From positions 1 through 29,472 of the IMG/VR virus record IMGVR_UViG_3300044635_000997: 29,472 nt of DNA; one strand, written 5' to 3'. This DNA comes from a virus. Positions 15,278 to 29,472 of the stretch are shown here, piece by piece. The notes under the pieces are model-generated. The model ran no database searches and was not told the origin of the DNA. It saw nothing but the letters and a program-made list of their open reading frames with translations. Every line of letters starts with the position of its first letter. Within the stretch, counting starts at the first letter, position 1. Position numbers and translations under genes: made by a program.

Positions 15278-15494
15278 CGGTTTCCTCCAGCTCATCAGCA
15301 ATCTCCCTCAGCTCATCGGCGACCCATCTCAGTATATCCGTTGCCGTCATGCCTGGCAGTGCCCTGCCGTGCGCTATCACCTCGTCGTCCGCATCGCCAG
15401 GCATCTCACGGACGAGGATGTAGCGCATCGACGGCGGTATCACATACAGGCTGACGGGGTAGCGCCCGATCTCACGGCGCCAGCGTAGTGTCAC
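15261..15494 (-). CDS. Small acidic protein, unknown function
   Basis: A 77-residue protein beginning at the GTG at 15494, which overlaps the nuclease stop (GTGA). An open frame extends upstream but only through the nuclease gene in another frame. It has a beta-like first half (YPVSLYVIPPSMRYILVRE) and a C-terminal acidic helix (ILRWVADELREIADELEETD). I do not recognise it. Overlaps on both sides place it in a translationally coupled run with the nuclease and the membrane microprotein. Confidence 0.6.
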   Translation of the reverse strand: MTLRWRREIGRYPVSLYVIPPSMRYILVREMPGDADDEVIAHGRALPGMTATDILRWVADELREIADELEETDAMDV

Positions 15495-15766
15495 GGCACT
15501 GCCCCAATCAGTGCCAAAGCCTCGTCTACCGTGCGGACCACGGCAATGGCCTTGCCCCGCCATGCGGCATGCAATTTGACTTGGCTCTCACTCAGCTTAG
15601 TCTTGGGGCCCTTGACCTCGACGAGCCACGTATCACCACGGTAGCCCACGAGGATATCGGGGCACCCGTGGCCGACCGTGGCCAGGTCGATGACGCTGGC
15701 ACCAACCGCACGCAATGCCTCGACGATAGGGCGATGTGTTGTGTCAATCTTGGCAGCTCTACGCAT
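15491..15766 (-). CDS. VRR-NUC family nuclease / Holliday junction resolvase-like
   Basis: A 91-residue PD-(D/E)XK nuclease of the small stand-alone VRR-NUC type. The active-site pattern is HGCPDILVG, then WLVEVKGPKTKLSESQVKLH, with Asp, Glu and Lys in the expected order. Such phage enzymes cut branched DNA during recombination or packaging. The start at 15766 follows AAAGGACAGGCC. The open frame extends further upstream, but that part is the tRNA-like element read in frame and should be left out. Confidence 0.85.
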   Translation of the reverse strand: MRRAAKIDTTHRPIVEALRAVGASVIDLATVGHGCPDILVGYRGDTWLVEVKGPKTKLSESQVKLHAAWRGKAIAVVRTVDEALALIGAVP

Positions 15767-15782
15767 GGCCTGTCCTTTGTAG

Positions 15783-15857
15783 TGGTGGAGCGGATGGGAA
15801 TCGAACCCACCTGGAACACGTTCAATCATACGCCGATCCGTCGCCTTGACCCGCCCC
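15783..15857 (-). ncRNA. tRNA-like element with alanine identity pair and CCA end
   Basis: This 75-nt minus-strand segment fits exactly between the stop codon of the upstream gene (15858-15860) and the ribosome binding site of the nuclease gene. It begins GGGGCGG and ends CCGCUCC plus ACCA, which pair over 7 bp with a G-U at the third pair (G3-U70). A perfect T-arm precedes the 3' strand (GUGGG, UUCGAUU, CCCAU). Between them there is no normal D-arm or 5-bp anticodon stem. Instead there is GCGACGG, like the D-loop equivalent of tmRNA, then an irregular long hairpin with an 8-nt loop. G3-U70 with A73 is the known alanyl-tRNA synthetase signature. It may be a tmRNA-like domain without an mRNA part, or a degenerate tRNA. 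Confidence 0.6.
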
Positions 15858-16970
15858 TCATCGTCGAGTGAGACCGCTTCGGCGTTCCCTCTCTCGTATG
15901 ACCTCATCATAGCACAGTGGGACGCCGCGGTACAGTGCTCGAGCGATGTCGGCGTGGCCGTTGGCCTTGCACCATGCCACCACCTCGAGGCGATCGTAGT
16001 ACATGCGAAACCGTGCTTGGCGGGGGAAGTCCTTCGATGCGCGCCACTTGCTCACCGTGCCCTGCAAGAAAAATGTGTGCAGCTCGGCATTGAGCACGTA
16101 GCGCGACTGCCACGCCAGCACTACGTCGGCAATGTCGGGGTGCTTGACACTCTCGGGGATGACATGCGCCCATGCGTAGGCCCATGCCCTGACTTCGTCC
16201 TTGCGGTAGTAGACGACGCGTAACTGGCGACTGGCACCCTTGTTGCCACCGCCGTTGCGTCCAATGATGATAGCCTTGGGTGGTGACGCGCCGCACCCTT
16301 GCGCTTCTCCCCACTTCCATTGGCGTGGCATCAGTGCTGGCACGTCAATCGCATTAAGCTCATCGAGTGTGTAGTGCTCACGCCGCACTGCATCGTAGAG
16401 GCGCTGAAGACGCGGCTCGATCGCATCGCGAGTAAGGCGCAAGACGTTGGCATCGGTGCGAAGCCACTCGAGAATTTCCGATTCGTAGGCGAGGTACATC
16501 TTGCCTCGTACGTGGTATGGCAACCCGTTGTCTTTCCACCATGTGCCGACGGTGTGCTTGGTGACACCAAGGAACTCGGCCACGTCGGTGCTGGTCATCA
16601 TCATCTCTGCATCGTGGCGGAGCTCCTCATGAGCCTGAAGCTTGTACGCCTTGCCCCACACCGATGCAAATGAGCGCTTGAGGCGCTGCGCAATTTTTCG
16701 CGTGGGCATCGTGCCGTAATGCGCGGCCACGAATTGCTCTTCCTGCGGTGTCCAGCGCCGTGGTGGATGGTGCACCGTGCGTCGCTTGATGGTCGGTCGT
16801 TGTATGCCCTGCAGAGTGATGCCCATCCTGCCAATCTGACGACGCACGGCCCGCTCGGTGGTGTCGAAGTGCTTGGCGATGGCGGCGACGGGCTGGGTTG
16901 TGGCCATGCGCTTGAGTGTGGCCATTGCTTCAGGTGACCAATTGACGCGCTTTCGTTTCTGCTCTGTCAT
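15858..16970 (-). CDS. Multi-HTH DNA-binding protein
   Basis: A 370-residue basic protein. Residues ~8-50 form an HTH (WSPEAMATLKRMATTQPVAA, then HFDTTERAVRRQI). Residues ~72-112 are a second SANT/Myb-like unit (RWTPQEEQFVAAHYGTMPTR, then SFASVWGKAYKL). Residues ~125-170 are a MerR/excisionase-like HTH with TSTDVAEFLGVTKHTVGTWW and a hydrophobic wing ending ILEWLRT. The C-terminal half has another Trp-rich region (VVYYRKDEVRAWAYAW) and FRMYYDRLEVVAWCKANG, also HTH_17-like. It could regulate late genes or act in replication near the candidate origin. The stop is directly followed by the tRNA-like element. Confidence 0.7.
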   Translation of the reverse strand: MTEQKRKRVNWSPEAMATLKRMATTQPVAAIAKHFDTTERAVRRQIGRMGITLQGIQRPTIKRRTVHHPPRRWTPQEEQFVAAHYGTMPTRKIAQRLKRSFASVWGKAYKLQAHEELRHDAEMMMTSTDVAEFLGVTKHTVGTWWKDNGLPYHVRGKMYLAYESEILEWLRTDANVLRLTRDAIEPRLQRLYDAVRREHYTLDELNAIDVPALMPRQWKWGEAQGCGASPPKAIIIGRNGGGNKGASRQLRVVYYRKDEVRAWAYAWAHVIPESVKHPDIADVVLAWQSRYVLNAELHTFFLQGTVSKWRASKDFPRQARFRMYYDRLEVVAWCKANGHADIARALYRGVPLCYDEVIRERERRSGLTRR

Positions 16971-17447: not shown

Positions 17448-17561
17448 TAGTGCGCAAGTGCGCATCTTCGATGTAATTTCAACTCTTTTCTCTTATTTTC
17501 CCTTCGTGTAGTTACTTTTGGAAAATAGAGTAGAAATGCGCACTTGCGCACTAAATGCGCA
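17448..17561. other. Candidate replication origin: 18-bp inverted repeats around an AT-rich tract
   Basis: TAGTGCGCAAGTGCGCAT at 17448-17465 is repeated perfectly in inverted orientation at 17536-17553. Each arm contains two copies of the self-complementary hexamer TGCGCA, and a fifth copy lies at 17556-17561 against the primase-helicase stop codon. The 70 bases between are AT-rich with a long pyrimidine bias on the plus strand, which contrasts with the GC-rich genome. Iteron-like repeats, an easily melted tract and the adjacent primase-helicase fit an origin. A promoter operator or a transcript hairpin for the next gene is the main alternative. Confidence 0.6.
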
Positions 17562-20424: not shown

Positions 20425-20454
20425 ATTATACCATACCATACAATGCTTAGACAA
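20425..20454 (-). promoter_or_regulatory. Promoter of the replication operon
   Basis: On the minus strand TTGTCT (20449-20454) is separated by 18 bases from a perfect TATAAT (20425-20430), which also has the extended TGG just before it. Direct repeats TATGG TATGG overlap the -10 box and could be the operator for the ribbon-helix-helix protein encoded immediately downstream. Confidence 0.7.
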
Positions 20455-20460
20455 CACAAT

Positions 20461-20488
20461 GCCCCACCCAGCTGATGCCAAGTGGGGC
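20461..20488 (-). repeat. Repeated intergenic hairpin, copy A
   Basis: Stem GCCCCAC/GTGGGGC, 7 bases after the stop codon of the gene at 20496-20843. The loop differs from copies B-E (GGCATCAGCTGG instead of GGCCAGAGCTGG) while the stem is kept. It is followed by TTGTGTTGTCT, so this copy could work as a terminator between the early operon and the replication promoter. Confidence 0.75.
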
Positions 20489-20495
20489 GCGGTGC

Positions 20496-20843
20496 TTAGT
20501 CGAACAGCACCGCTTGATACAGATTGTATCCCTCCATAAACTGCCGGTGTGCAATCTCGCGGTTATGTGCTGCCACCTCGTTGAGATCGTAGATAGTGTC
20601 AACGCTCTCGAGGCATAGCCGAATCAGCGACTCTGGCCACTGCTGCACTGCCTCCCGCGCTTGCTCAATGGTCGGATACATCCATGCGCGGTATCCTGCG
20701 GCTTTTGGGTAGTGATAGCAGTGCGACTTCCCTGTCACCGCAATGAGCTTCCCATCTAACTGCATCTCGATGCGGATATAGACGAATCCCATGATGTCGT
20801 GCGGAACGGTGAGGTAGGCAATCTCAAATCGATGCCACTCCAT
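20496..20843 (-). CDS. Early-region protein, unknown function
   Basis: A 115-residue protein from the ATG at 20843, preceded by GGGAGATTGAGT; the frame extends back to a GTG at 20864 inside hairpin B, which is unlikely to be used. It has an N-terminal beta sheet (RFEIAYLTVPHDIMGFVYIR), then HCYHYPKAAGYRAWMYPTIE, a Trp/Tyr-rich part suggesting a compact fold, and a helical C-terminus. I do not recognise it. It is the last gene of the early operon. Confidence 0.65.
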   Translation of the reverse strand: MEWHRFEIAYLTVPHDIMGFVYIRIEMQLDGKLIAVTGKSHCYHYPKAAGYRAWMYPTIEQAREAVQQWPESLIRLCLESVDTIYDLNEVAAHNREIAHRQFMEGYNLYQAVLFD

Positions 20844-20860
20844 ACTCAATCTCCCTTCGT

Positions 20861-20892
20861 GCACCCCACCCAGCTCTGGCCAAGTGGGGCGC
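20861..20892 (-). repeat. Repeated intergenic hairpin, copy B
   Basis: Stem with GCGCCCCAC/GTGGGG and the conserved loop TTGGCCAGAGCTGG in minus-strand orientation. One stem position near the base is changed (GTGGGGTGC), which turns a G-C pair into G-T, so pairing in RNA is kept. It lies between the stop of 20898-21434 and the ribosome binding site of 20496-20843. Confidence 0.85.
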
Positions 20893-20897
20893 GGTGC

Positions 20898-21434
20898 TTA
20901 CTCTACGATGCCTACCTTGCCCATGACGCTCTGCAGATGCGCAACGCCGGGCTCTGCCTCGCTGGCGCGATATATCTCACGCAGCGCCTCATAATACCCG
21001 GGCATGCTTCGCGAGACACTCACAGTGTCCTGGAATATCCGTTCACAGCTACAGTCGTAGTGGTGATTTTCCCGGCACTCCTCGTCGACCTGCTCGTCCT
21101 GATAGCAGAAAAACTCCCCGCACTCGGTGCGATACACTGCCAGCTCTCCAAGCACGGTGCGGTAGCGGGGCCGTGTGTCATCTCGGTGGAGCGACACAGG
21201 CAAGCGCCGCTCGACCCGCTCTGCAGTCGCTGTGATGGCGGTGTTGAGGTAGCGGTAGACATAAATCCACGCTTCGCCCGCGCTTTGTACACGAGGAGCG
21301 ATGCACTTGCCTCGCACGTACAGCGCATAGACCGGACCATAGTGGGTGAAGTCATGTTCTCGCAGCTCGACGGGCTCATCATATTCCACGCCGTGCCACA
21401 CTCCCTCGCTTACTCTCGTATATCCGTGCCTCAT
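20898..21434 (-). CDS. Early-region protein, unknown function
   Basis: A 178-residue protein starting at 21434, overlapping the previous stop (ATGA) with GGAG 8 bases upstream. It has a beta-rich N-terminal half (YGPVYALYVRGKCIAPR, AWIYVYRYLNTAI) and a central acidic Cys/His patch (CGEFFCYQDEQVDEECRENH, then CSCER) that may bind metal. The C-terminal helix contains YYEALREIYRASEAEPG. I do not recognise it. The gene is followed by hairpin copy B. Confidence 0.65.
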   Translation of the reverse strand: MRHGYTRVSEGVWHGVEYDEPVELREHDFTHYGPVYALYVRGKCIAPRVQSAGEAWIYVYRYLNTAITATAERVERRLPVSLHRDDTRPRYRTVLGELAVYRTECGEFFCYQDEQVDEECRENHHYDCSCERIFQDTVSVSRSMPGYYEALREIYRASEAEPGVAHLQSVMGKVGIVE

Positions 21435-22470: not shown

Positions 22471-22945
22471 AGAGCATCACCTGAAACTTGCGCTCCGGGA
22501 GCATGCTCCACGCAGCGATGGCGGAACGAATAATAGGGCGCACTGCCCCTTCACGGATGACGATGAAGCGCACATTTTTCTGCCAGAGCATGGTGTGCAT
22601 CATTGCTAGTGAGAGGTATCGACTGAAGCATGCGACAAGCTGCACGCCTTCCTCCTCCTGAGTGTCGTTATATCCCGCGTAAAAAATCGGCACATACACA
22701 TCTGGCGCGTCGTGATCCTCGAGCGTTCGATTCATCACGGTGTGGTGCATCTCATACCACACTGGCACGCCGTACATGACGCCAGCACGGCCAAGCGCAT
22801 CGAAGAAACGGTCTTCGTCTGTCATCGGTGTGCTGGGGTCTCCCAGCTTGAGCACCTTGAACCCGACATCTGGCGGCCGTGTATCCGTCATCTTGCCTGG
22901 CGTGGGCAGTGACTTTTTGGATTTTTGTGGTGGTCTCCTTGCCAT
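22418..22945 (-). CDS. Early-region protein, unknown function
   Basis: A 175-residue protein starting at 22945 after AAAGGAGATTGAGT. The first 25 residues are basic and Pro-rich (ARRPPQKSKKSLPTPGK). The rest looks like a small alpha/beta fold with VPVWYEMHHTVMNR, VYVPIFYAGYNDT, GVQLVACFSRYLSLAMMHTM and NVRFIVIREGAV. No known motif is seen. It follows hairpin copy C and overlaps the next gene by 53 bases, with the end of one coding region used in two frames. Confidence 0.63.
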   Translation of the reverse strand: MARRPPQKSKKSLPTPGKMTDTRPPDVGFKVLKLGDPSTPMTDEDRFFDALGRAGVMYGVPVWYEMHHTVMNRTLEDHDAPDVYVPIFYAGYNDTQEEEGVQLVACFSRYLSLAMMHTMLWQKNVRFIVIREGAVRPIIRSAIAAWSMLPERKFQVMLYDDYTAEKAHHHTPVPG

Positions 22946-22962
22946 ACTCAATCTCCTTTTCT

Positions 22963-22994
22963 GCGCCCCACCCAGCTCTGGCCAAGTGGGGCGC
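22963..22994 (-). repeat. Repeated intergenic hairpin, copy C
   Basis: A perfect 9-bp stem GCGCCCCAC/GTGGGGCGC with the conserved 14-base loop. It lies 5 bases after the stop of 23000-23293 and is followed within about 15 bases by the ribosome binding site and ATG of 22418-22945. Confidence 0.88.
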
Positions 22995-22999
22995 GGTGT

Positions 23000-23293
23000 T
23001 TAGTCTGATACTACTATGGTCATCTGCTTGCGCATACTCGCTACGTACTCCTCTGCGATTTGCATCGCAGTATGTGCAGTCCAGCGCGTAGTCACATTCA
23101 CCTCAAATTTTTCCACCTGTATCGTATGGCCACCATGCACCACCTCGGCTCGAACCACCACGAGGTACAGTCGGTATCGAAACCAATTGCGGTGTCGAAT
23201 TTCATCAGCCCCCATGTACATCACCAAATCAATTCCTGGCTGAATCGGCATAGTCAGTGTATATCTATGCAGTTTCTCGAGTGGATTGTCCAT
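23000..23293 (-). CDS. Early-region protein, paralog of the gene upstream
   Basis: A 97-residue protein starting at 23293 with GGAGGTTGAGT before the ATG. It has two halves: beta strands (YRLYLVVVRAEVVHGGHTIQ) and a C-terminal helix, RWTAHTAMQIAEEYVASMRK. The same order and closely similar helix (RWEEGLAYQVADEYIQRMKS) occur in 23306-23584, so the two arose by tandem duplication. Function unknown. Confidence 0.68.
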   Translation of the reverse strand: MDNPLEKLHRYTLTMPIQPGIDLVMYMGADEIRHRNWFRYRLYLVVVRAEVVHGGHTIQVEKFEVNVTTRWTAHTAMQIAEEYVASMRKQMTIVVSD

Positions 23294-23305: not shown

Positions 23306-23584
23306 CTATCCAATCATCGTCGCACGCGACTTCATGCGCTGAATGTACTCATCAGCGACTTGATACGCTAAGCCTTCCTCCCACCGTCCATCGCGATATG
23401 TCGTCAGTCGCTCCACGGTCGCACAGTGTCCATCAATGACAATCTCCACGTGCACATCAATCCCAAATCGGTCATGCACCGCAAAGTTGTGGTGCCATAT
23501 CCGCTCCCCTTTAATGTGCAGTACCAGCATGGCCTTTTCTGTCAACGGCGCTTTGTAGGTAAAAACCTGGTCCATCTGCTTCAT
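23306..23584 (-). CDS. Early-region protein, paralog of the gene downstream
   Basis: A 92-residue protein starting at 23584 after GGGAGATTGAG. Strands LVLHIKGERIWHHN and IDVHVEIVIDGHCATVERL lead to the helix RWEEGLAYQVADEYIQRMKS. It pairs with 23000-23293 as a tandem duplicate. The protein at 25709-26014 has the same two-part build and may be a third, more distant member. It lies after hairpin copy D. Confidence 0.68.
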   Translation of the reverse strand: MKQMDQVFTYKAPLTEKAMLVLHIKGERIWHHNFAVHDRFGIDVHVEIVIDGHCATVERLTTYRDGRWEEGLAYQVADEYIQRMKSRATMIG

Positions 23585-23600
23585 CTCAATCTCCCTTCAT

Positions 23601-23633
23601 GCGCCCCCACCCAGCTCTGGCCAAGTGGGGCGC
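23601..23633 (-). repeat. Repeated intergenic hairpin, copy D
   Basis: Same stem and loop as copies C and E, with one extra base in the C-run of one arm (plus strand GCGCCCCCAC). The extra base bulges and leaves the 9 pairs possible. It lies 9 bases after the stop of 23643-24002 and just before the ribosome binding site of 23306-23584. Confidence 0.87.
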
Positions 23634-23642
23634 GGTGCTTTG

Positions 23643-24002
23643 TCACTCATAGTGATGCATCCAAAAATTGAAGTGGGCTCTACTTGGCTTCGTGTGCTTT
23701 GAGTTGTAGACCTCACTGACCGGCAGCTCGACACGCCCACAGTCACAACCAGCGTCTGGAACGTACATCCACCCCGATCGGTCGGTCAGGTACACAACCT
23801 TGTACTCTTGGCTAAAGATTTTCATACCCATACTGTCGACAGGCTCGACATCGCCGAGTAGCCAGTCCGGAGCAGGCTGCCTAAAAAAATATTCAACTTC
23901 GTTTCGCTGCTTTAGCAGCATCAGGTACTCATAGTCGGTCATATGTGCGCACACTGTAGCACGCTCGATTTTGTGCATCGCAAGTAAATCCCAAAGTTCC
24001 AT
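23643..24002 (-). CDS. Early-region protein, unknown function
   Basis: A 119-residue protein starting at 24002 after GGGAGATTGAG. It has an N-terminal helix (LWDLLAMHKIERATV), an acidic middle (WLLGDVEPVDSMG) and a strand-rich region with GCDCGRVELP, whose two Cys are too few for a zinc site alone. The C-terminus is rich in His and aromatics (RAHFNFWMHHYE). Not recognised. It lies between hairpin copies E and D, so it is a self-contained cassette. Confidence 0.65.
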   Translation of the reverse strand: MELWDLLAMHKIERATVCAHMTDYEYLMLLKQRNEVEYFFRQPAPDWLLGDVEPVDSMGMKIFSQEYKVVYLTDRSGWMYVPDAGCDCGRVELPVSEVYNSKHTKPSRAHFNFWMHHYE

Positions 24003-24018
24003 CTCAATCTCCCTTCAT

Positions 24019-24050
24019 GCGCCCCACCCAGCTCTGGCCAAGTGGGGCGC
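24019..24050 (-). repeat. Repeated intergenic hairpin, copy E
   Basis: A perfect 9-bp stem with the conserved loop, identical to copy C over the full element. It lies 11 bases after the stop of the SSB-like gene and just before the ribosome binding site of 23643-24002. Confidence 0.88.
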
Positions 24051-24061
24051 GGTGTTTCATC

Positions 24062-24937
24062 CTAGAACGGCATCGGCGTGGCGTCGTCGTCCTCGATGGG
24101 CTGTGCCGCGGGCTGGGCCGCGGGCTGGGCCGCGGGCTGGGCATCAGCACCGATAGCGAAGTCATCCCGTGCGGGCTCACTAGCCCACGCCTCACCGTCG
24201 AGGTACATTGCATGTGCGAGCTGGAGCAGGTCGCGGCCAATGAATTGGCGAACGAGTTCTTCCCGCGTCACCTTCGATGGCTCGTTGTGGAGCTGAGGGT
24301 AGACCACGACGGCACCCTGTGACACCTCGGTCGTGACGGGCTTGCCCTTGGCCGTGAGCGGGGTTACCAGCGTTGCCCAGAAGGCGAAGTGCGGGATGGG
24401 GTCAGGGCCCTTCTTGGTTTGGTTCGCCAGCGACGTACACGCATTGATCCAGAGGTACACCTCGCCGCCACCGCTGCGCTTGGTTGGGCGCTTGAAGAGC
24501 TTCATCGCTACGAGGCCCTTGGCTTGGATGACCACGGGCTCGGCAATGCCCTTGACCATGGCCAGCACTTGGGTGGTGCTCCGCACCCCAGCGTACTGCC
24601 GAGTCTCACCGTGCTTGGCGAGGTACGTCTTGGCCGCCACGGCGTCCATGTAGTGCGGGATGGCCTTGGTTGAGCCGTCATCCAGTGACAGATACCACTG
24701 CATACGCTGGCGGAGTGGCACGAAGGTGAGGTAGCGCGTCTCAAAGGCCACTTCCTCGTTGTCGAACCGCTCGACCTGCTCCCACCCCTCAGGCATCGAC
24801 GCAAAGCTCGAGGTGTGCCATGCGCCGACCACGCCGCCGAGCTTGGTCGAGTTGAGCCAGTAGATGAGCGGGTAGCGCTCAGCGGCGTCGTCATAACTCT
24901 CGGGCTGGTATCCAGCAAGTGAAAAATCGTTACTCAT
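24062..24937 (-). CDS. Single-stranded DNA-binding protein-like
   Basis: A 291-residue protein ending in a Pro/Ala/Gln linker and the acidic tip IEDDDATPMPF. That pattern (flexible linker, Asp cluster, Pro-Phe end) is the hallmark of bacterial and phage SSBs, whose tip recruits replication and repair partners. The body is mixed beta with LIYWLNSTKLGGVVG, RYLTFVPLRQRMQWYL, VEVYLW-type strands and a central basic stretch (KLFKRPTKRSGGG). It does not show a textbook SSB OB-fold motif, so the family call rests mainly on the tail. Its start overlaps the ribbon-helix-helix gene stop. Confidence 0.62.
   Translation of the reverse strand: MSNDFSLAGYQPESYDDAAERYPLIYWLNSTKLGGVVGAWHTSSFASMPEGWEQVERFDNEEVAFETRYLTFVPLRQRMQWYLSLDDGSTKAIPHYMDAVAAKTYLAKHGETRQYAGVRSTTQVLAMVKGIAEPVVIQAKGLVAMKLFKRPTKRSGGGEVYLWINACTSLANQTKKGPDPIPHFAFWATLVTPLTAKGKPVTTEVSQGAVVVYPQLHNEPSKVTREELVRQFIGRDLLQLAHAMYLDGEAWASEPARDDFAIGADAQPAAQPAAQPAAQPIEDDDATPMPF
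24098..24145 (-). repeat. 12-bp tandem repeat in the SSB-like linker
   Basis: Four units of a 12-base repeat (plus strand GGGCTGGGCCGC, with one or two changes in the outer units). They encode AQPA-type units in the flexible linker before the acidic tip. Tandem units of this kind change in number easily, so linker length may vary between relatives. Confidence 0.85.
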
Positions 24938-28409: not shown

Positions 28410-29472
28410 CGATGCTTTCACTCCCGTCACTTGCATAGCGGATACCAATGGTCTGCACTTTGCGGGTCAGCGTGGTTGACCCCGTGTAGACGCTCACGAG
28501 GTCGCCAAGCACATAATCCCGTCCATACCGCAGTGCCTCGCTCTGCAGAATTCGCGCATCGACGCGGCTGCGCTGACGCTCGGCCTCTGCGAGGGTGATA
28601 TCACCGCTCGCCGTGTACTCACTCGTGGTGCTTTGGTTGCGTGCGTCGACCCACACTTCACGCAGATCGAGCCCCGTCGGCGCTGTGGCTGGGCGGATGA
28701 CAAAACTCCTTGTCGCCCCCTCGCCTTGCCCTGCTACGATGGCGGCCGTTGCGTCGGCGATGCGGTCGACCACGATGCGCAGTGAGCCGATGGTGCCATT
28801 GGCCACGCTGAAGATGACGGTAGAAGTGCGGTCAGTACCCCGCTGCCCCGTGTACCACGTGTAGGTGTACGTCGCTGGCGCAGTGAATACCAAATCAAAG
28901 TCACCGCCTGCCACCTCTTGCACGCGTTGCATGGCAGTGAGGAGGTTTTGCCCTGACACCGACAGCGAAATCGTATTGCCATTGCCCCCAGTGGCGGCCG
29001 TGGTTGCCCCCGTCAGCACACCGCTGAGGAGTCGCCCGTTCGCCGTGGTGGCACTGCTCCCCACGTTGTAGTTGAACAGTGTTTTCAGCACCGTTTCGGC
29101 GGCGACGCTGACAAACTGACTGCGATCGGCGACACCGCTTTTCCATGCCACGATGCGGTCGGCGAGCAGTGCGGCAAAGCCTACTGCCTGCACCGTGATG
29201 GTGGTGACATCGGCGATGACGGTGTCTATCATGCGCATGATGCCAGCGAACTCCCTATAGTAGGCGATGCCAGCGTCACGGTCTTCACGGTAGACCTCGA
29301 GGATGGCACCGTACACGAGGTACGGCACCGATGCACTCGTGCCGCCCACCGTGATGCGTGCCATGTCCACGCCGTTGACCGCCCTGCTGATGACGATGTC
29401 GAGCACGTCGCTCACGTAGGAGGTGCGTGCGCCTGCGCTGTCATAGGTGATGACGGTGTACTGTACTGCCAT
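28387..29472 (-). CDS. Tail-associated baseplate protein, Gp37-like
   Basis: A 361-residue protein matching the pattern of siphovirus ReqiPepy6 Gp37-like tail proteins: an early beta domain (VLDIVISRAVNGVDMARITV, GAILEVYREDRD), VQAVGFAALLADRIVAWKSG in the middle, and a C-terminal hub-like domain with LREVWVDARNQS, AERQRSRVDARILQSEALRY and DYVLGDLVSVYTG. It should sit at the tail tip below the distal tail protein. In the closed circle it directly follows the gene at 127-1005 (TGATG overlap). The first 42 codons also appear at 1-127. Confidence 0.8.
   Translation of the reverse strand: MAVQYTVITYDSAGARTSYVSDVLDIVISRAVNGVDMARITVGGTSASVPYLVYGAILEVYREDRDAGIAYYREFAGIMRMIDTVIADVTTITVQAVGFAALLADRIVAWKSGVADRSQFVSVAAETVLKTLFNYNVGSSATTANGRLLSGVLTGATTAATGGNGNTISLSVSGQNLLTAMQRVQEVAGGDFDLVFTAPATYTYTWYTGQRGTDRTSTVIFSVANGTIGSLRIVVDRIADATAAIVAGQGEGATRSFVIRPATAPTGLDLREVWVDARNQSTTSEYTASGDITLAEAERQRSRVDARILQSEALRYGRDYVLGDLVSVYTGSTTLTRKVQTIGIRYASDGSESIDVGLISQ
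29346..29472. repeat. Terminal direct repeat, right copy
   Basis: Identical to 1-127. Removing one copy leaves a 29,345-bp circle with unbroken genes at the join. Confidence 0.93.

Follow-up and report, generated by a model that had tools for sequence, protein, structure and literature searches.

The window, the whole 29,472-nt stretch of viral DNA analysed here, is a tailed-phage genome encoding a terminase, portal, major head protein, tape measure protein, and primase. Its ends, positions 1–127 and 29346–29472, form a perfect 127-bp direct repeat, which indicates that the phage genome, approximately 29.35 kb long, is probably circular and complete. A 75-nt tRNA-like element occupies positions 15783–15857 of the minus strand and is read from 15857 to 15783 (GGGGCGGGUCAAGGCGACGGAUCGGCGUAUGAUUGAACGUGUUCCAGGUGGGUUCGAUUCCCAUCCGCUCCACCA). 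It is positioned between two genes of the same strand. The upstream gene (15858–16970) encodes a helix-turn-helix protein of 370 amino acids (HTH_17), and its TGA stop codon at 15860–15858 abuts the 5′ end of the element. The downstream gene (15491–15766) encodes a 91-residue VRR-NUC-like nuclease, which is an endonuclease according to PHROG and scores just under the Pfam cut-off. The sequence AAAGGA at 15773–15778 of the minus strand probably serves the nuclease gene as its ribosome-binding site. The first-pass annotation described the element as filling the intergenic gap exactly. The element starts directly after the TGA, and 16 nt that include AAAGGA separate its 3′ end from the ATG at 15766.

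The element is composed of an acceptor stem, a T-arm, and a middle of 40 nt. The 5′ strand of the acceptor, GGGGCGG (15851–15857, with G3 at 15855), forms seven of seven pairs with 15787–15793. The 3′ strand, CCGCUCC, and the residues that follow it (15783–15793) contain U70 at 15789, A73 at 15786, and an encoded CCA at 15785–15783. The T-arm, GUGGG-UUCGAUU-CCCAU (15794–15810), has all five of its stem pairs. The 7-bp acceptor with G3·U70, A73, encoded CCA, and perfect T-arm reported by the first-pass annotation were thus confirmed on the minus strand. An acceptor and a T-arm at tRNA spacing occur once in the window, compared to 0.007 times per dinucleotide-shuffled window, and the combination with CCA was found in none of 150 dinucleotide shuffles. 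Because this end structure is beyond chance, the ends of the element are tRNA-derived. The alanine identity proposed from G3·U70 and A73 holds for the entire set of acceptor-stem determinants described in bacteria, A73, G2-C71, G3·U70, and G4-C69 (PMC9976931), all four of which are present.

The middle of the element is not clearly structured. In the minimum-free-energy fold, it can form a 3-bp hairpin, GUC-AAGGC-GAC (15840–15850), and an irregular arm, GGA..GCGU-AUGAUUGA-ACGU..UCC (15813–15839). The hairpin, a possible feature overlooked in the first-pass annotation, has the position of a D-arm without the linker of residues 8–9, and its pair probability is approximately 0.46. The irregular arm has the position of an anticodon arm. 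The best fold of the middle is no more stable than that of shuffled sequences (z 0.08, p 0.50), and the same holds when the acceptor and T-arm are kept fixed (p 0.35), in a fold-energy test that separates poorly, as true TLD-only RNAs (see below) average just −0.5 s.d. The earlier description of a middle without a normal anticodon arm stands, and its irregular hairpin can be drawn, but is no stabler than in shuffles.

The element is not a canonical tRNA. At its default threshold, ARAGORN called no tRNA or tmRNA in the window, and no other tRNA was found in the phage; loosened thresholds yielded only poor, mutually contradictory folds of the element. The outcome agrees with the first-pass annotation, which had named ARAGORN as a check for a canonical fold with a normal anticodon arm. 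The score of the element with the tRNA model RF00005 is 12.4 bits, compared to the curated cut-off of 29, and its best folds do not contain a 5-bp anticodon stem with a 7-nt loop. The Infernal tmRNA check, likewise proposed earlier, gave 27.5 bits with RF00023, below the cut-off of 47 and with the entire mRNA-like domain deleted. We rejected this score as proof of a tmRNA, since ordinary phage tRNA-Ala in other records score alike, from 20 to 36 bits. The element shares with full-length tmRNA the ends GGGGC...GCUCCACCA and G3·U70, but lacks the mRNA-like domain, pseudoknots, and D-loop motif. The mascRNA/menRNA family (RF01684) is also tRNA-like without a decoding arm; however, it is an animal nuclear RNA 3′-end element, and the match of the phage element, 19.5 bits, is weak and well under the cut-off of 42.5.

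The element also resembles phage tRNA-Ala(UGC) with a non-canonical D-arm, present in cluster M mycobacteriophages, Vibrio phage EniLVp02, and contig L440. These tRNAs have G3·U70 and GGCGAC in common with the element, their T-arm is near-identical, and their scores on tmRNA-type models are similar. GGCGACGGAUC is common to the element and the cluster M mycobacteriophage tRNA-Ala. Unlike the element, the tRNAs have a proper anticodon stem with UGC in its loop, and ARAGORN calls the two that were tested, from L159 and L440, tRNA-Ala. As a separate observation, phage tRNAs of the Ala-UGC and apparent Trp-CCA types share the non-canonical D-domain CAUGUnCCnnGGnGGCGAC (L025:554–629, L026:1454–1529, L159:6146–6223, and approximately 20 more loci), and in many cluster M mycobacteriophage records such tRNAs are not annotated.

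Comparison with related phages places the element within a 111-nt segment (15770–15880, minus strand), which covers the final codons of the upstream gene together with its stop, the whole element, and the new ribosome-binding site AAAGGA. The segment is missing in three related contigs, according to the alignments of L005 and L008 and the upstream sequence of L009. Three assemblies bear the element, and all of them represent one phage (99.99% identical). The nearest other relative (contig 3300045999_008439), with flanks 93–95% identical, lacks the segment, as do the more distant relatives L008 and L009. The conservation in related phages to which the first-pass annotation had looked for confirmation is thus absent from the nearest relative and two more distant ones. 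In relatives without the segment, the helix-turn-helix and nuclease genes overlap directly. An insertion of 111 nt in this phage lineage is the simplest history suggested by these alignments. The insertion left both neighboring genes intact, and no target-site duplication is visible. We also considered the element as an attachment site, in which attP would copy the 3′ end of a host tRNA; an integrase was sought, and none was found among the phage proteins scanned.

An exact 29-mer of the 3′ half of the element matched this phage only among viral contigs. Besides this phage, the 5′ motif GGGGCNNNTCAAGGCGACGG occurs in three stretches, none of which has a tRNA-like 3′ end. A pattern combining the 5′ half with the T-arm had no match in 85,000 genomes, a plasmid search gave no relevant match, and a terminase search for the host gave no match. 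Matches in scans with AAGGCGAC and GGCGACNG were almost all ordinary tRNAs. The element's own arrangement, GGGG, a short gap, GGCGACNG, and a T-arm, was sought in 2.9 million viral contigs; when G3·U70 and no tRNA call were required, no convincing relative was identified beyond the same-phage copies.

When IMG/VR was scanned for a T-arm near the D-loop motif of true tmRNA (TTCGACNGG, 18–48 nt, GGTTCRANTCC), a separate class of tmRNA-like RNAs emerged that consist of the tRNA-like domain only (TLD-only), occur in many phages, and are largely unannotated. Among the matches listed, many are of one RNA kind, 65–88 nt long, with tmRNA ends and the D-loop GGUUUCGACNGG. In these RNAs, a short P2-like hairpin replaces the whole mRNA-like domain and is followed by GGAC and the T-arm; G3·U70 and A73 are present. 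A model of the class, R1, was built from 14 sequences, and covariation in this seed is strong, as 14 of 26 pairs have changed on both sides. The model recovers at least 52 matches, at least 44 of them distinct, with scores of 46–100 bits, whereas ordinary tRNAs, whether from these records or from others, reach at most approximately 36 bits. In the 44 distinct RNAs listed, 93.7% of pair cells are standard, compared to 67.6% in shuffles, and double changes occur at 16 of 21 pairs. G3·U70 is present in 44 of 44; the seeds were picked with G3·U70, but the match list was made without that filter and shows the same. Members of the class (alignment A4) include L314:4277–4358, L336:1797–1878, L296:46–127, L349:10544–10624, L411:2501–2581, L412:2491–2571, L416:2450–2532, and others.

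Named carriers of TLD-only RNAs are Streptomyces phages LuckySocke, GiJojo, BRock, Alone3, and pSt2308, and Stenotrophomonas virus Jojan60. The locus is without annotation in most of the named-phage records checked, and the GiJojo record has a hypothetical protein there. Neither SmpB nor a second tmRNA above cut-off was found in any of the 43 carrier records searched. Mycobacteriophage DS6A has been listed as 'TLD only', and strong inhibition of tmRNA by a similar molecule is described in the same paper (Hudson et al. 2014, PMC4131195). The inhibition was observed in E. coli, perhaps through titration of SmpB (PMC4131195, citing Mao et al. 2009). A tmRNA database paper from 2025 repeats the statement on DS6A and adds two plastid forms of approximately 65 bp (PMC11915505). 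In the mainly open-access literature, we found no description of a wider phage class beyond DS6A. The D-loop GGUUU of TLD-only RNAs can pair with AAACC in the P2 loop (A2 columns 11–15 with 29–33); 95.7% of the cells are paired and there are no double changes, and the pairing is a possible pseudoknot.

The element resembles the TLD-only class and DS6A, the latter compared by its published description, in being phage-borne, in having G3·U70, A73, and an intact T-arm, in lacking an anticodon arm, and in its length within the 65–88-nt range. However, it has none of the UUCGAC motif, the GGAC motif, and the covarying P2 helix of the class. At the positions of the two motifs the element has GGCGACGG and CCAG, respectively, and the P2 helix pairs are broken in its alignment to R1. 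The GCGACGG previously interpreted as a tmRNA-like D-loop is not supported, as GGCGACGG differs from UUCGAC and GGAC is absent before the T-arm. The element scores 28.0 bits with R1 and 32.3 bits with model R2, below every member of the class, while ordinary phage tRNAs reach up to 36–37 bits. Its scores across RF00023, R1, and R2, 27.5–32.3 bits, are in the range of ordinary phage tRNA-Ala. We therefore rejected the element as a TLD-only tmRNA, since the common features are the alanine acceptor and T-arm only. Although outside the class, the element may work like one of its members.

We tentatively favor the interpretation that the element is a tRNA-derived, non-decoding RNA gene with alanine identity, acquired as the 111-nt module and working in a TLD-only-like manner. 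The phage lineage would have acquired the module at the gene junction, and the element would have kept a complete acceptor/T half with alanine identity and no decoding half. It would be co-transcribed with the helix-turn-helix–nuclease operon, and host tRNA-processing enzymes could excise it from the transcript. Alanine charging is the best-founded of the predicted steps, because the bacterial acceptor-stem set is complete and anticodon-less G3·U70 minihelices are chargeable. AlaRS needs little beyond a G3·U70 acceptor helix, and the element can probably be alanylated; the charging of such minihelices lacking an anticodon was reportedly shown by Francklyn and Schimmel in 1989. The charged element could then occupy AlaRS, EF-Tu, or SmpB, and so compete with host tRNA-Ala or tmRNA. 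Without an anticodon loop it would be unable to decode, which leaves the sequestration of AlaRS, EF-Tu, or SmpB as its conceivable effect. EF-Tu binds the TLD of tmRNA about as well as it binds tRNAs (PMC8012679).

Several observations argue for a non-decoding RNA. Perfect ends around an unrecognizable middle are unlike uniform neutral decay. The neighboring genes are intact, a stop codon immediately precedes the RNA, a ribosome-binding site follows, and the insert looks non-coding in the nuclease frame. Non-decoding RNAs with alanine identity are a recurrent phage gene type, and inhibition of tmRNA in E. coli by a molecule of the DS6A type has been reported (PMC4131195, PMC11915505). The tRNA-Ala-range scores, the shuffled-level fold of the middle, and the missing UUCGAC and GGAC motifs argue against it, and there is no evidence of selection on the element, because its nearest relatives lack it and all copies come from one phage. 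Of the earlier proposal of an alanine-chargeable RNA without a decoding loop, the end identity and the missing anticodon arm are retained, and such phage RNAs exist; the tmRNA-type D-loop and the conservation are not. It is unlikely, though conceivable, that the element represents a second architecture of such phage RNAs, assembled independently and converging on the presumed role of the TLD-only class.

The main rival to a non-decoding RNA is a rearranged or decaying tRNA-Ala relic from foreign DNA, perhaps made of recombined tRNA pieces, with no present function. We regard such a relic as almost as likely as the non-decoding RNA. A recent accident is suggested by the restriction of the element to one lineage, since relatives lack it and the scan of 2.9 million viral contigs gave no homologue; the phage has no other tRNA. 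On every tmRNA-type model the element is tRNA-Ala-like, and its middle is structurally nondescript. Its D-like part, GUC..GG.CGACGG, is similar to phage tRNA-Ala with a short D-arm, for example that of L440, and GGCGACGGAUC is the stretch held in common with cluster M mycobacteriophage tRNA-Ala. However, uniform neutral decay should not keep the acceptor, T-arm, A73, and CCA perfect and yet erase the anticodon arm, so that a single rearrangement must be assumed; the same perfect ends around an unrecognizable middle suggest selection on the ends. The available data do not separate the relic from the non-decoding RNA.

The remaining explanations are less likely. Host tRNA-processing enzymes mainly require the acceptor/T half, and the element lies exactly between a stop codon and a ribosome-binding site, as would suit RNA-processing punctuation, in which these enzymes cut the operon mRNA between the helix-turn-helix and nuclease genes and define transcript ends. 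This is improbable, as punctuation would require neither the four alanine determinants nor an encoded CCA, and in relatives the two genes overlap directly and do without it. A decoding tRNA that works but is highly unusual, its weak anticodon arm missed by the programs, is very unlikely: the element is about as long as a tRNA, and a weak 5-bp arm, GUAUG/CGUGU, closing a 6-nt loop can be drawn, but the resulting cloverleaf is approximately 11 kcal/mol worse than the best fold, RF00005 gives 12.4 bits, and ARAGORN calls none at its default threshold. A 139-aa open frame (15491–15910) spans the element in frame with the nuclease gene, and the insert, divisible by three, amounts to exactly 37 of its codons. 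That the tRNA-like features are a coincidence in protein-coding DNA is nevertheless hardly credible. The codon score of the insert in the nuclease frame is −0.04, compared to 0.34±0.16 for the real genes of the phage (approximately 2.4 s.d. below), on which ground we rejected the coding explanation. Moreover, the tRNA-end structure is far beyond chance, and the nuclease gene has a good start after the element that is kept in relatives.

RNAs of the TLD-only class may jam ribosome rescue in the host or its charging of alanine. If they are functional, they would give phages an inexpensive RNA-based means of countering trans-translation or alanylation, and the DS6A-type inhibition of tmRNA in E. 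coli would be linked to a natural, recurrent strategy. Through the class, this strategy becomes accessible to experiment in phages of Streptomyces and Stenotrophomonas that can be cultured; for the element, known from a single lineage, the case is weaker.

Two other repeats were observed in the phage genome. A hairpin repeat, GCGCCCCAC...GTGGGGCGC, is present in five copies between small early genes (20438–20502, 20840–20904, 22942–23006, 23581–23645, and 23998–24062) and also occurs in a relative contig; the copies are likely operator or terminator sites. A 33-bp inverted repeat with a 40-nt spacer (17448–17553), located between the primase gene and the next gene, is a possible replication origin or regulatory site.
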